Shown: positions 4,911-16,067 of the stretch, in pieces | How the letters are laid out: each line of letters begins with the position of its first letter | Numbering within the stretch: position 1 is the stretch's first letter | NCBI RefSeq assembly: GCF_017565645.3 | Contig: NZ_CP086136.1 | Span: 4,633,501 to 4,697,500, forward strand | Direction of reading: 5' to 3' | DNA from: Bradyrhizobium barranii subsp. barranii | GTDB taxonomy: Bacteria; Pseudomonadota; Alphaproteobacteria; Rhizobiales; Xanthobacteraceae | DNA: 64,000 nt | Made by a program: the position numbers and the translations under genes | The notes under the pieces: model-generated | Seen by the model: only the letters and a program-made list of their open reading frames with translations | Databases searched by the model: none | Told to the model about the DNA's origin: nothing

Positions 4911-5761
4911 TCAGGGCACGCGCAACCCGTCCGGCACCACGGCCTGCCGCCGGACCAGCAGCAGGGCGATCAAGACCGTGGGCACGAGGATCGTGAGGCC
5001 CAGCAGCGTGACCTGCATCTGCGACAGCGGCATGATCCCGCCGCCGGGGGTGGCCACGACGAAGCCGCCGATCACCAGCAGCACCCGCAAAGGCCACTCC
5101 ATCAGGCCGGCGCCGCGAAGGTCGCCGACAAAAGCCTGGTAGCCCTGGATGCCGCCGCAGATGAAGACGATGCCGAAGCAGGCAAGTCCGGTCAGCCCGA
5201 ATGCCTCCAGATACGGGTTGCTGCCCTGAAGCAGCAGCGCCGGATTGAGCACGAAGAAGAACGGGATGAAATAGATGATGCTGCCGACCCACATGCTCTC
5301 CCAGCCCGTCTTCATCGCGGGCGCACCGGCGATGCCGGCTGCGGCGAAGGAGGCGATCGCCACCGGGGGTGTGATCGAGGACAGCATGCCCCAGTAGAAG
5401 ATGAACATGTGCACCGCCATCTTGTTCAGCCCGAGCTTCTCCAGCGCCGGCGCCACCAGAATGGCCAGGAAGATGTAGCAGGAGGTCGTGGTCAGCCCGA
5501 GCCCGAGGATCAGGCTGGTGATGGCGCACATGATCAGCAGCAGGAAGGCATCGCCTCCAGCGATGCTGAGCAGATCGTTGGCGAGGCTCGAGATCATGCC
5601 GGTGAGCGAGAAGGCGCCGATCAGCAGGCCACAACCGGCGAGGATCGCGATCAGCTCGACGAAGGTCTTGCCGTTGAGTTCGAGGAAATGCAGCCAGCGC
5701 GCGCCGCCCCAGTTCTTGCCGGGGAAGAATTCGTTCAGCGCGGCCAGCAGGCACATGCCCC
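4911..5761 (-). pseudogene. TRAP transporter fused permease, C-terminal fragment
   Basis: About 281 residues of hydrophobic sequence that form the second half of a DctM-type TRAP large permease (segments LTTTSCYIFLAILVAPALE and FYWGMLSSITPPVAIASFAA are typical). It lacks a start of its own because an IS110-family element (5764-7130) separates it from the N-terminal fragment at 7131-8481. Joining the two fragments with one copy of the AT core restores a 734-codon frame, with one TGA left at the junction. The gene ends 21 bases before the glutaminase start on the same strand. Confidence 0.85.
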
Positions 5762-5776
5762 ATCTGTGGACGCCCC

Positions 5777-6031
5777 GGTGGATGCAAGAAGAATCTTTCG
5801 ATTAGGTGTTGCGCGTAGTCGGGTGCTGACATCTGTCCGGCCTTGATTGCGACCGTCATATGTCGCGGGCCCGTATGGGAGTTCGCGGATCAGGTCCAAA
5901 TCACAGCGGCGTACTTGGAAGCACTTGGGCATGTACTGGTTTTCCCGACCCCGTCTCATCGACTGTTGCGCCGTACCTTCCGTTTGACCTTCCTACCTCC
6001 TCGACGACCTCTGGTCGGGCGGACTAAGCGA
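5777..6031 (-). ncRNA. Candidate seekRNA/bridge RNA region of IS1111-type element 1
   Basis: About 255 noncoding bases between the transposase stop and the right inverted repeat, where IS1111-type elements are known to encode their guide RNA. On the element's sense strand it holds ACATGCCC (plus-strand 5927-5934), the reverse complement of the right host flank. Downstream of that is CGCTGTGAT (5900-5908), identical to the left host flank. The stretch aligns without gaps over about 60 bases with the equivalent region of the second element (CC-N27-GCC-N21-GCGAAC). RNA ends are not determinable from the sequence. Confidence 0.6.
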
Positions 6032-7057
6032 TTAAGCCGCTGCGACCGGAGCTTTGTAGACCCCACCGTTGACCATCAAAGCCCACACGGTGCGAGCCAT
6101 CTTGTTGGCGAGAGCGACGGCGACAAGCATGGGCGGCTTACGAGCGAGCATGCGCTCCAGCCATGCCCCTTGCGATTGACCGCGTCGGCGAGCCAGCTTC
6201 ACCACCGCACTCGCCCCGATGATGAGGAGACGCCGCAGCGTTCGCTCACCCATTTTCGATATTTGGCCGAGCTTCTGTCTTCCACCAGTGGAACGTTGCA
6301 GCGGCGTCAACCCCAACCACGCGGCGAAATCCCGGCCACGTTTGAAGTTTTCGGGCTCAGGCGCTAGCGCCATCAGAGCTGTCGCAGTGATTGGGCCGAT
6401 GCCAGGAACTGTCATAAGCCGTCGAGCAACTTCCTCTTCTCGGGCTCGTCGCGCGATCTCAATATCGAGTTGCTTGATTTGCTCTTCCAGCACCGCCAGC
6501 ATCTTGACTAGGATATCGAGCGCCGGTTGCGCCGCCGTTGGCACGCTGCTCCCGGAAGCTTGCGCGTGCTCAACCAGCGCGGCGACATTGGACGCCCCCT
6601 TTGCAACGACCAGGCCGTATTCGGCGAGGTGACCTCGCAACGCGTTTATGATCTGAGTACGTTGCCGGACCAAAAGATCGCGAGCGCGAAACACGACCGC
6701 GCTCGCCTGCTGGTCCTCACTCTTCACGGCGGCAAAGCGCATGGTGGGGCGTTGGGCTGCTTCGCAAATCGCTTCTGCATCGGCCATATCGTTTTTCTGG
6801 CGTTTCACAAAGGGCTTTACATAGGACGGTGGAATCAGACGCACTGCGTGACCCAGCTTGCCAATCTCACGAGCCCAGTGATGGGCGCTGGCGCAGGCTT
6901 CCATCGCTACCAGGCACGCAGGCTGCTGAGCAAAGAAAGCCAGCACATTATCACGACGCAGCTGTTTGCGGAAAACAACAACGCCGCCAGCGTCTGCGCC
7001 ATGTGCCTGAAAAACATGTTTCGCCAAGTCTAGTCCAATCGTGCTAACTTCGTTCAC
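6032..7057 (-). CDS. IS110 family transposase
   Basis: A DEDD-type transposase of about 341 residues. The N-terminal RuvC-like domain begins IGLDLAKHVFQAHG with the first Asp. The NDMADAEAI segment carries further acidic residues. The C-terminal Transposase_20 domain contains VPGIGPITATALMA and STGGRQKLGQISK with the conserved Ser. GTG 7057 is chosen as start because AGAGGAAG lies 6 bases upstream; a longer frame from 7087 has no such site. The enzyme is expected to act with a guide RNA from the same element. It looks intact. Confidence 0.9.
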   Translation of the reverse strand: MNEVSTIGLDLAKHVFQAHGADAGGVVVFRKQLRRDNVLAFFAQQPACLVAMEACASAHHWAREIGKLGHAVRLIPPSYVKPFVKRQKNDMADAEAICEAAQRPTMRFAAVKSEDQQASAVVFRARDLLVRQRTQIINALRGHLAEYGLVVAKGASNVAALVEHAQASGSSVPTAAQPALDILVKMLAVLEEQIKQLDIEIARRAREEEVARRLMTVPGIGPITATALMALAPEPENFKRGRDFAAWLGLTPLQRSTGGRQKLGQISKMGERTLRRLLIIGASAVVKLARRRGQSQGAWLERMLARKPPMLVAVALANKMARTVWALMVNGGVYKAPVAAA

Positions 7058-7130
7058 GGACGCTTCCTCTTTCTGACGGTTCAACACCCTTCACTTTGGC
7101 ACATCGATGCCGTCGAGGGGCGTCCACCCC

Positions 7131-8481
7131 ATCACAGCGCGGCGTTGAGCACGCCGAACCAGAACATCGCAGCCGTTGCCGCGATCGAACCGGCGAGCAC
7201 CAGCGTATTCCCGAGCCTCCAGCGCGCCGGCCCGGACCATTGATGCAGGATCACGAGCAGCACGGAGGCATAGAACGGCGCGTGGCTCTCGCGCTTGAAG
7301 TAGAGCAGCATTACCACGAGCACGACGATCACGAAGAGATAGTACCAGCCCTCTTTGAAAGCGTCCCAGAAGCGCGGCAGCTCGGCGCGCGGCAGGCCCT
7401 TCAGCTTGTGGCGGGCGGCATAGGCGTCGACCTGCGCGAACAGGCCGACATAATAGAGGATCGAGGGGATGGTGGCGGCGAGCGCGACGTCGGCATAGCC
7501 GGTGTTCATGAACTGCGCCATGACGAAGGCGGTGGCGCCCAGCACCGGCGGCGCCAGCACGGCGCCGGTCGAGGCGCAGGCCTCGATCGCGCCGGAATAG
7601 GACGGCGTGAAGCCGGTCTTCTTCATCGCGGGGATCGTCATCGTTCCGGCCGTCAGAACATTGGAGACGATGCTGCCGCCGACGGTGCCGAGCAGACCGG
7701 AGGCGAACACGCAGACTTTTGCCGCGCCGCCGCGGAAGGTGCCGCACATCGCGAAGGCGATGTTGATGAAGAATTTGCCCGCGCCCGTCATCATCAGCGC
7801 GGTGCCGAAGACGAGGAAGCCGATCACGGTGTCGGCGAAGGCCTGAATGGGAATGCCGAGCAGGCTCTCGCCGGAGAGCATGTGATAGGACGTGGTCTGC
7901 GCCAGCGTCGATTGCGTGCCGCGGAACGGACCGAGCCAGGAGGAATCCGCAAACAGCGGATAGAGCGTGAAGGGCAGCACGCTGAGCAACAAGCTCCAAC
8001 CGCCGGTGCGGCGCAGCGCCTCCATCAGCACGAACCACATCACGAGTCCGGCGGCGATGATGCTGCCAGGCGCGCCATCGAACTCCCAGCCGAATTGCGC
8101 GGCCTTGCGGATGTTAAGCATCAGCCAGATCGCCGAACCGAAGGTCGCGGCGAACAGCAGCAGGTCATACCAGGGAATGCGGTCGAGCGGCGCCTTCTCC
8201 GACCCCGGAAAGATCAGGAAGGTGAACGGCAGCATCAGCGCGATCAGCAGGTAGAAATATTCGGTGTTGAGCTGGGTGTAGTCGATGAAGAAGCGCAGCG
8301 AGAATTGCTGGTTCACACACAACAGAATGGTGGCCGCGGTGGCCGTCATCAGCACCCAGCGCCACGCGCCCTTCAATGTGCGGACGCGCGTGACCTCGGC
8401 TTCCTGCAGATCGGCGGCGGCGCCGAGATGCGGATCTGCGAACTCAACCTTCGTCGCCGGCGCTGCCGCAGTCTCTGACAT
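7131..8481 (-). pseudogene. TRAP transporter fused permease, N-terminal fragment
   Basis: About 449 residues from ATG 8481 (GAGGAGAG upstream) to a TGA at 7134-7132. It holds the small-permease-like N-terminal helices and the first half of the DctM-type permease, with family segments such as GTVGGSIVSNVLTAGTMTIP and SGAIEACASTGAVLAPPVLGAT. The rest of the protein lies at 4911-5761 beyond the IS110-family element. This permease belongs with the TAXI-type binding protein encoded just upstream (8524-9687). The importer is probably non-functional unless a second permease exists elsewhere. Confidence 0.85.
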
Positions 8482-8523
8482 CGGCGCTCTCCTCAAACAG
8501 TTCTGCGGCAGGCAGCTTGACGG

Positions 8524-13669: not shown

Positions 13670-14696
13670 ATGTCGGCTGTCGATGCGAAGATCGTCCGCA
13701 CCATGTGTCCGATGAACTGCCACCCGACGTTTTGCGGAATGCAGGTTGAGGTCGAGAGCGGTCGGCTCAAGACGCTGAGCGGAGACAAGGATAATCCGGA
13801 CAGTGCCGGGTTTCTTTGCGTTCGCGGGCGCGCGACCAGCGAGATCTTCGGCAATCCGAAGCGACTGCTCTACCCCCAGATTCGCGACGATCGCCGCACC
13901 GACATCTGGCGCCGGGTAAGCTGGGACGAGGCGCTGGATTTCATGGCGAAGCGGATGCGGTCGGCTGGACCCGAGGCGGTGGGTCTATGGGCGGGGCATG
14001 GCGGCTTCACCGTGGGCAGTGCCGTGACGGTGCAGTTGATGCAGCGTTTCGCGCATATGTATGGATGCCAGAACTGGCATCCTGCAATGGTCTGTTGGGG
14101 GCTTGGCGGTTTTGGAGTGGGTCTGACGGGCGCGCTCAAGGTCAATACCAAGGAGGATATGGCTGAGAACTCGAACATGATCGTGCTTTGGGGCGCGAAC
14201 ATTTCGAGTCAGCCCAATACCGCCCGTCATATCGTCGCCGCTCGGCGTCGCGGGGCAAAAGTCATCACGATCGATGTAAGGAGAACGGAAGCGGCGGCTC
14301 AATCGGATGAAGTTTTCCTGATCCGCCCTGGATCGGACGCTGCGTTCGCTTTGGCCGTCATGCACGTCATCGTCACTGAAAAGCTCCATGACTCTGAGTT
14401 TATCGAAGCGCATACCGTCGGCTTCGCGGAATTGTCGTCTCACGTTCTGCCCTTCACGCCGGCCTGGGCAGCAGCCGAGACCGGTCTTGAGGAAGGCCAG
14501 ATTGCGTCGTTCGCCAGAGCGTACGCGTCCACGCGACCAGCCATGATCCTTCTCGGCGGCAGCTCCATGCACAAGAGTGCCAACGGCTGGCACGCGGCGC
14601 GTGCGATCAGCTGTCTGCCGGCGTTGACCGGCAATTTTGGGGTTGCAGGCGGCGGTCTCGGCCCACGTCATGGCGCCCACAGTGCGGCCATGTGCT
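13670..14696 (+). pseudogene. Molybdopterin-dependent oxidoreductase, N-terminal part (split by IS110 element)
   Basis: The gene begins at ATG 13670 behind GGGAGG. It encodes the [4Fe-4S] domain of the DMSO-reductase/formate dehydrogenase family (MCPMNCHPTFCGMQV with further Cys at FLCVRG), followed by the molybdopterin domain (NWHPAMVCWGLGGFGVG, with a candidate Mo-ligand Cys in MVCWG, and LWGANISSQPNTARH). It stops being host sequence at 14696. Excising the IS with one CT core gives a 680-codon frame together with 16068-17080. The substrate is not evident from the sequence. Confidence 0.85.
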
Positions 14697-14767
14697 GGTG
14701 TGGACGGCCTCTCATCCCCACGGTTCTATGGCGCTCCGGCGTCATAGCTAGATGAGAGGAAAGTCTG

Positions 14768-15796
14768 ATGAATCTTCCCATTCGTATCGGTATGGATACT
14801 TCCAAGTCGGTCTTCCAGCTTCACGGTGTTGACGAGAACGAGGCGGTAGTTGTCCGGCGGCAGTTTCGGCGAGCCGAGATGATCCGCTACTTCGAGCGCC
14901 TTCCGCCGGTCCTCGTCGCCATCGAGTCCTGCGGCAGTTCGCATCACTGGGCGCGCCTGCTGCAGTCGTTTGGTCATGAAGTGAAGCTGATCCCGCCCCA
15001 ATATGTGAAGGCTTTCGTAAAGCGCGGCAAGAACGACGCGGCCGATGCCGAGGCGCTGTGCGAGGCGGTCACCCGGCCGAGTATGCGGTTTGTACCGGTG
15101 AAGTCAAAAGAACGGCAAGCGGCCTGCATGTTGATGACCGTGCGGGAACGCCTGGTCAGCGTGAAGTCCCAGCTTTCTAATGCCTTCAGGAGTTATGCGG
15201 CTGAGTTTGGCATCGTTGGCCCCGCCGGTCGGCAGAACGTCACGGCTCTTATCAAGCGGGTGCTCGAGGATGACAACTTACCGGAAATGGCGCGGGATCT
15301 CTTCCGCCTTCAAGCGGAGGAGTATGCCGCGGTCGAAGCCCGCCTGGCAAAGATCGAAGCCAAGCTGATGAAGTGGCATCGTGAGGATGATGTCAGCAGG
15401 CGGATCGCGACGATTCCCGGCGTCGGTCCGATTGGGTCGTCCATGCTAAGCATGAAGGCGCCCCCGCCGGAGACGTTCAGATCAGGCCGCGACTTCGCGG
15501 CTTGGCTCGGACTGACACCCAAGGATCACTCAACTGGCGGCCGGCAACGATATGGCGGTATCACAAAGGCCGGAGATTCAATGCTCCGATCGACGTTGAT
15601 TGTCGGCGCGACTGCGCTGCTGAGGCACATTCGAAAGGGCCGTCATAAGCCGACACCCTGGCTCACTTCGCTGCTGGAGCGAAAGCCGCCGAAGTTGGTC
15701 GCGGTGGCCTTAGCCAACAAGTTCGCCCGTATCGCCTGGCGCTTGATGATATCGGGTGGCGTGTACAACCGGCCGGTAGCCGCCATGCCCATCTGA
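14768..15796 (+). CDS. IS110 family transposase
   Basis: 342 residues from ATG 14768, with GAGAGGAAAG upstream. The N-terminal DEDD domain starts IRIGMDTSKSVFQLHGVDE and continues with KNDAADAEALCEAV. The C-terminal domain has IPGVGPIGSSMLS and STGGRQRYGGITKAG with the conserved Ser. It is homologous to the transposase at 6032-7057 along the whole length but differs at many positions. It appears intact, so the element may still be mobile. Confidence 0.92.
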   Translation: MNLPIRIGMDTSKSVFQLHGVDENEAVVVRRQFRRAEMIRYFERLPPVLVAIESCGSSHHWARLLQSFGHEVKLIPPQYVKAFVKRGKNDAADAEALCEAVTRPSMRFVPVKSKERQAACMLMTVRERLVSVKSQLSNAFRSYAAEFGIVGPAGRQNVTALIKRVLEDDNLPEMARDLFRLQAEEYAAVEARLAKIEAKLMKWHREDDVSRRIATIPGVGPIGSSMLSMKAPPPETFRSGRDFAAWLGLTPKDHSTGGRQRYGGITKAGDSMLRSTLIVGATALLRHIRKGRHKPTPWLTSLLERKPPKLVAVALANKFARIAWRLMISGGVYNRPVAAMPI

Positions 15797-16053
15797 TCTG
15801 AACTCGGTGTACCGGTCGAGATTGCTCGCCGGATAACCCACGAACTTGCAGGACGCAGTAGATGGAAGGTGGACCGATCGGTCGATACGCGCGAGCTTCC
15901 GTAGATTACACTGGCATCACGAATGTCGCCTATGTGCTTGGAGCGTGCGTAGCGAACACCATCTTGGCCAGCGGGCTTTGTCCGCGCAAACAGGCCGGAC
16001 ATCTGATAGCAAGCGATCTGGCCAGAAGTCTGCTATAATCCTGACAAGCGGGG
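15797..16053 (+). ncRNA. Candidate seekRNA/bridge RNA region of IS1111-type element 2
   Basis: The noncoding 3' region of the element. ATGTGCT at 15932-15938 is identical to the left host flank (14690-14696), with one more base pairable as a G-U wobble. AGATTAC at 15903-15909 is the reverse complement of the right host flank GCAATCT (16068-16074) with one mismatch. The two segments lie in the same order and nearly the same place as in element 1. They are framed by the shared GCC...TTGGA and GCGAAC..CCAT blocks. RNA ends are unknown. Confidence 0.55.
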
Positions 16054-16067
16054 GGCCGTCCACATCT

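Follow-up and report, generated by a model that had tools for sequence, protein, structure and literature searches.

An IS1111-family element of Bradyrhizobium barranii whose noncoding region carries guide segments matching its insertion sites

Introduction

The 64,000-nucleotide stretch of the Bradyrhizobium barranii subsp. barranii genome analysed here (hereafter, the window) contains a fused TRAP permease gene that is interrupted by an insertion sequence (IS; hereafter, element 1). A first-pass annotation, made from the letters alone, had noticed that the noncoding region of element 1 resembles both host flanks, which raises the question of whether the element carries its own address. In the IS1111 family, as described in passages of PMC11187229, a transposase of about 330-350 aa is encoded between subterminal repeats of 11-13 bp, the ends have 7-bp left and 3-bp right extensions without target duplication, and a long noncoding region lies downstream of tnp, with a circular intermediate that forms a junction promoter. 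The same passages describe a transposase-bound seekRNA with the guides in an RNA loop, in which the complement of the top strand lies 5' of the match to the bottom strand, the opposite order to that of IS110. Here, comparison of sequences demonstrates the anatomy, boundaries, target sites, guide-flank covariation and conserved fold of element 1, which is very probably an IS1111-family IS that chooses its target by a noncoding RNA of its 3' region.

Results

Anatomy and boundaries of element 1

The limits of element 1, and the lack of a target duplication, follow from the occupied and empty copies of its usual site in an IS3-family element together with uninterrupted TRAP genes in relatives (Table 1). 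The annotation had placed the element at 5764-7139, and the empty-site comparison corrects this to 5763-7134. The subterminal inverted repeats (GTGGACGCCCC) are 11 bp long and perfect. The transposase scored 337.6 bits against NF033542 in the profile search, in which PF01548 and PF02371 also match, and the solved structures matching it represent two distinct sequences, the ISCro4 and IS621 transposases. Its length of 341 aa relies on the start annotated in a 99.9% identical plasmid copy (L178); the longest frame is open to a GTG at 7087 and would give 351 aa. The closest plasmid records with element 1 are Bradyrhizobium barranii plasmids (99.9% identity).

A stretch of 269 bp separates the tnp stop codon from the right end. 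On the minus strand its central part reads CCAGT-ACATGCCCA-A-GTGC-TTCCAA-GTAC-GC-CGCTGTG-ATTTGG, with the complement of the right flank (hereafter, T guide; its part ACATGCCC at 5934-5927) 5' of the segment in the sense of the left flank plus core (hereafter, B guide; CGCTGTG, 5908-5902), and this order is kept in the aligned relatives. No Rfam family reached its gathering threshold in the 64-kb window. By eye, TTGCAT-17-GATGAT would form at the junction of the IS circle as a candidate promoter, and CTTG is kept in 60 of 65 right ends of related elements; the best hexamer score was reached by 795 of 2000 shuffles and is not significant.

Table 1 Features of element 1 and of the TRAP gene that it interrupts (window positions)
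Feature	Position	Strand	Basis or remark
TRAP fused permease gene, 5' part	7135..8496	minus	TIGR02123, 387.3 bits, profile 3-378 of 615
Left host half of target, CGCTG	7135..7139	minus	
Whole IS1111-type element 1, 1372 bp	5763..7134	minus	Empty versus occupied site copies in genome; uninterrupted TRAP site in relatives
Left terminal extension TGATGGG, 7 bp, core TG first	7128..7134	minus	7-bp/3-bp rule in passages of PMC11187229
Left subterminal inverted repeat GTGGACGCCCC	7117..7127	minus	
Transposase gene, 341 aa	6032..7057	minus	NF033542, PF01548, PF02371; start inferred from L178
3' noncoding region, 269 bp, putative seekRNA/bridge RNA source	5763..6031	minus	
Basal stem, 5' strand	5944..5951	minus	Helix 1; pairs with 5887-5894
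T guide ACATGCCCA, complement of right flank	5926..5934	minus	
Apical hairpin separating T and B guides	5911..5924	minus	Helix 3; GTGC 5924-5921 with GTAC 5914-5911
B guide CGCTGTG, same sense as left flank plus core	5902..5908	minus	
Basal stem, 3' strand	5887..5894	minus	
Second conserved stem-loop of noncoding region	5839..5871	minus	Helices 4-6; 100% of cells paired
Right subterminal inverted repeat GGGGCGTCCAC	5766..5776	minus	
Right terminal extension AGA, 3 bp	5763..5765	minus	
Right host half of target, TGGGGCATGT, core TG first	5753..5762	minus	
TRAP fused permease gene, 3' part	4911..5762	minus	TIGR02123, 237.9 bits, profile 367-614 of 615, scored on 4914-5756

Two kinds of insertion site in one genome

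A search of the whole genome (11.4 Mb, 4 contigs) found six full-length copies of element 1, five of which, the window copy among them, are identical over 1365 bp. The TRAP gene holds one of the six, and an IS3-family transposase gene the other five. A seventh copy (L007) is partial, with only the left part, and is preceded by GTGGCTG. One full-length copy (L006) is 2 bases longer within the transposase gene, probably a frameshift.

The usual site is GTTGCTG^TGGGCATGTGG (the caret marks the junction), occupied five times and empty once in the same genome. The occupied copies (L002-L006) read GTTGCTG^TGATGGG-GTGGACGCCCC ... GGGGCGTCCAC-AGA^TGGGCATGTGG, and comparison with the empty site GTTGCTG^TGGGCATG gives the 7-bp and 3-bp extensions and no target duplication. 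The pattern GCTGTGGN{0,1}GCATGTG has one exact unoccupied site in the genome, within an IS3-family element whose OrfB-type frame is complete at 308 aa. There are six places with the IS3 left stretch and at least 400 bp to the right of the target, five occupied by element 1 and one empty. The target (L031, about 1501-1518) is close to the end of the frame 620-1546. This IS3-family element, whose transposase gene is the usual target of element 1, spans about 262-1622 of L031 with TGAAATGGACCC ends, as judged by eye.

The IS3 and TRAP sites have GCTG^TGGG and CATGTG in common and little else; when the window copy is compared with the other copies, the left flanks agree at 12-13 of 50 bases and the right flanks at 18-19 of 50. 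The TRAP insertion is an event separate from the IS3-site copies. Joined without element 1, the TRAP flanks read through in frame (VLNAALWGMCLLAA). Nine of 19 TRAP loci from other genomes span the junction in the alignment (that of the remaining ten does not reach across it), and all nine lack an insertion and have TGGGG there. Eight of them are gap-free and L165 has two gap openings; after TGGGG, L166 continues with AATG in place of CATG.

The five IS3-site copies could well stem from a single insertion that was then carried along by the IS3 element, although we lean somewhat against it. Over about 110 bp the left flanks of L002-L006 are alike, and beyond that they differ, as though IS3 units carrying the IS1111 element had moved together, and only the TRAP copy and the relatives elsewhere would then be independent events. 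Against a single insertion, the flanks of the five copies come in at least three variants, a B. quebecense plasmid carries a 78% identical element at the same IS3 site, and another (L195) sits in a diverged version of the IS3 target. Such hitchhiking limits the guide reading and does not oppose it, as one IS3 insertion plus the TRAP insertion would still be two sites for one guide pair.

Matches between the guides and the flanks of element 1

Both matches reported at first pass are exact. The minus-strand 9-mer CGCTGTGAT (5908-5900) equals minus-strand 7139-7131, and minus-strand 5760-5753 has the 8-mer ACATGCCC (5934-5927) as its reverse complement. The 255-base region 5777-6031 contains a single occurrence of each. 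The 9-mer had been taken to equal the left host flank throughout. By the empty-site comparison this is right for CGCTG (7139-7135), while TG is the core common to the IS end and the target, and AT belongs to the left end of the IS.

For the wider comparison, 166 transposase matches in the fetched loci (130 near full length) yielded 70 distinct elements that had enough flank and whose two ends the repeat rule defined; the others were duplicates, were cut short or had unclear repeats. The 65 at 60% transposase identity or more were aligned and gave 55 unique guide pairs. In 20 of the 55, the AT of CGCTGTGAT agrees with the left end of the IS (TGAT in both). In the CG-core elements the bases at this position mostly differ from the left end (CGTT versus guide CGGT in 10), so we do not claim AT as part of the guide.

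The same guides of element 1 were compared with its two sites. The IS3 site matches T at 9/9 in the usual register and B at 6/7; the TRAP site matches B at 7/7 and T at 8/9 in a register slipped by one base (4/9 in the usual one). The suggestion that programmed insertion can be read from a genome is borne out to the extent that the guides fit the insertion site and identical copies stand at two sites matching the same guides.

The annotation had also held that both matches were improbable by chance. Among 20,000 random flank pairs drawn from the window, a T match of at least 8 occurred in 2.0%, a B match of at least 7 in 9.4% and both in 0.165%; with the observed order and spacing, both were seen in 39 of about 200,000 pairs. 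The joint chance is indeed small, which for one element is suggestive and not overwhelming, and the guide reading is secure because of the comparison across elements and not because of element 1 alone.

A conserved fold places both guides in one internal loop

RNAalifold was applied to 34 sequences, namely 32 of the 65 elements, hand-picked for diversity, and L179 and L180. Besides a basal stem and a short CCA/UGG helix, the resulting structure has an apical hairpin, a second stem-loop and an internal loop, which carries the T guide on its 5' side and the B guide on its 3' side. With 24 of the 27 pairs counted (a 3-pair helix at columns 28-38 was left out), standard pairs are formed in 99.1% of cells across the 34 sequences, and sliding the strands by 1-3 columns leaves 20-43% of cells paired. 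Cells changed on both sides number 63, versus 18.0 in shuffles (reached in 0 of 500), and pairs with a change on both sides number 8, versus 5.3 (8 of 500). In the basal stem (helix 1), 5 of 8 pairs have changes on both sides and 98.5% of cells are paired; in the apical hairpin (helix 3), the value is 99.3%, with 15 double changes in one pair. These percentages lean towards the structure because it was derived from the same alignment.

Folding of single sequences was not better than that of shuffles (z -0.72 and -1.11), and the single-sequence minimum-energy fold pairs the guides otherwise than the comparative one, so the fold rests on the comparison. By comparative folding, both segments fall within one internal loop of a conserved, covarying structure, in line with the expectation that they would lie in a target-binding loop.

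The guides might act as DNA, through homology or protein contacts, or be captured target fragments without function, as short segments of this kind could in principle be copied from targets. We consider this very unlikely: the flanking stems show the compensatory changes expected of a folded RNA, the guides face each other across the loop, and passages of PMC11187229 show that related IS1111 elements need such an RNA.

Guides change together with flanks among related elements

Across the 55 guide pairs, with kinship ignored, the T guide matched its own right flank at a mean of 7.24 of 9 positions, versus 4.81 (sd 0.14) for permuted flanks, and the B guide matched its own left flank plus core at 5.98 of 7, versus 4.10 (sd 0.14). 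The highest permuted means were 5.36 (T) and 4.73 (B), and none of 20,000 permutations reached the observed T or B value. The left five bases alone gave means of 4.11 and 1.63, with the offset chosen on the true pair. The core dinucleotide is the same in left end, right flank and guide in 47 of the 55 (24 CG, 21 TG and 2 AG) and disagrees in 8. Poor matches were found for L087 (T 4, B 5), L078 (B 3) and L129 (B 5, left end replaced). A chance likeness of the noncoding region to its flanks is scarcely credible: taken for a single element, the joint frequency of 1 in several hundred random pairs is not negligible given the many possible elements and positions, but the same columns match their own flanks in 55 guide pairs far beyond permutation, 54 of these use one of two registers, and relatives with other targets also match their own flanks.

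Such relatives include L131 (79% transposase identity), with the target CAATT^TGTCTCATG and the guides TGAGACA and CAATTTG. With their own guides, and as counted by eye, a Rhizobium gallicum element (L179; 75.6% DNA identity) matches T at 7 bases in a row and B at 7/7, and an Ensifer adhaerens element (L180; 75.5%) matches T at 8 in a row and B at 6/7.

A search with the noncoding region gave matches in 88 of 265 genomes. Of 35 loci examined, some re-fetched, 2 had no guide region, 6 had no usable right flank, and 27 were scored with the best offset. T matched at 8-9 of 9 bases in 21 loci, at 7 in L199, L206 and L135, at 6 in L209 and L219, and at 4 in L198, so that 6 of 27 fall below 8/9 even with the best offset. 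L198 has the same guides as element 1 next to the right flank TGTGGGCGC (T 4/9), and it speaks against strict guide-flank matching. Identical guides beside different flanks, the pattern proposed at first pass as evidence against guiding, are thus mostly absent, since L131, L179 and L180 differ in both and the identical copies of element 1 stand at two matching sites, and L198 is the case that does show it. L189 and L190, which are partial copies on plasmids without the guide region, are uninformative. As a whole, the comparison supports the bridge/seekRNA-type arrangement that had been proposed, as the guides hold a fixed place in a conserved fold and change with their own flanks across relatives.

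Several related elements have altered ends. In L129/L197, L135 and L204 the 7-bp left extension is swapped for the same foreign sequence (CTCGCTCCTGCGATTACCCCAT, flush with the left repeat), as though this were the exact insertion point of another element; their left flanks fit the B guide poorly. In L192, L200 and L203 the right junction is without the T of the TG core (AGA^GGGCATGTG), possibly from imprecise crossover. In L119 and L195 the left end is CGATGGG though right flank and guide have the core TG, so that IS end and target have different cores.

A slipped match in the TRAP gene

In 54 of the 55 guide pairs, the guide base opposite position 1 of the right flank precedes the apical hairpin by 1 nt (27 cases) or 2 nt (27 cases). 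The sole exception, at 0 nt, is the window copy. At the TRAP site the B arm is in register (CGCTG^TG), while the T arm would pair at GGGCATGT, one base further from the core. All nine spanning relatives have TGGGG, so the extra G was most likely present before the insertion.

Our tentative reading, held at just short of even confidence, is that the TRAP copy is a natural slipped-guide insertion, in which case the two arms are placed somewhat independently and a one-base bulge is tolerated. This is one case, and it could alternatively be an ordinary tolerated poor match. A literature search, limited in scope, for Bradyrhizobium IS1111 targets and for bridge-RNA bulges or off-targets returned no account of a slipped case.

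Other IS1111 elements of the window and genome

A second distinct IS1111 element (element 2; 14693-16066, plus strand) has four further fetched copies (L185-L188), two of them one base longer. The window copy cuts into ORF 13670-14755, which probably belongs to a molybdopterin oxidoreductase gene. Exact words from its own flank at first gave no convincing T match. The five copies, at unrelated sites, have the common target (A/T)(T/G)G^TG(C/T)AATCT, and the noncoding region contains the guide AGATTACA, the complement of TGTAATCT, followed by TATGTG. Compared over the five copies, AGATTACA fits TGYAATCT, with one mismatch at three of the five sites because these carry TGCAATCT.

A third IS1111 element (63% transposase identity to element 1) is represented by L011-L016 together with L022-L027, two pieces of the same six copies. 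Its three distinct flank sets after deduplication (L024, L026 and L027) match the guides AGGTGGATG and ATAGCCG at 6-9 of 9 (T) and 4-7 of 7 (B).

Discussion

By analogy with the experiments reported in the consulted passages of PMC11187229 and PMC11208160, we infer how element 1 would be transcribed, bound and exchanged. A transcript of its 3' region would be processed to give a seekRNA to which the DEDD-type transposase binds. To the right of the core, the T arm would pair with the top strand, and to the left of it the B arm would pair with the bottom strand; the transposase would exchange strands at the TG core between the circular IS and the target. The usual target, that of five of the six full-length copies, is a stretch of the IS3-family transposase gene close to its 3' end, and the TRAP insertion would have used a T arm slipped by one base.

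This kind of system is already known, its mechanism having been published in 2024, and the slipped insertion is the unusual part. The IS1111 elements with seekRNA described in passages of PMC11187229 (ISEc11, ISKpn4, ISPst6 and ISPa11) share with element 1 the transposase type, the subterminal repeats and the extensions, as well as the downstream noncoding region, the T-then-B order, the lack of target duplication and the reprogramming between relatives. Element 1 differs from them, as far as those passages go, in its guides and target and in the slipped T arm. ISEc21 of the IS110 family also targets part of an IS3-family transposase gene, yet in the account of PMC11187229 consulted its noncoding region lies upstream of tnp, its guide order is reversed, and its target is another part of the gene, around the second D of DDE. 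The IS621 recombinase (structure 8wt6) is related to the element 1 transposase (phmmer E 2.7e-9), and in the passages of PMC11208160 and PMC11208158 consulted the IS621 target is likewise recognised via a loop of a noncoding RNA. IS621 differs from element 1, according to those of PMC11208160, in belonging to the IS110 group and in having the RNA in the other end of the element. The bridge RNA of IS621 has a second, donor-specific loop.

If the slipped reading of the TRAP insertion is true, there would be a class of off-target sites that is missed when mismatches are counted in one register, and real slippage would bear on how the specificity of bridge/seekRNA tools is judged. For the IS1111 family, the 55 pairs set here against their own flanks show that genomes by themselves suffice for reading and checking guide pairs.
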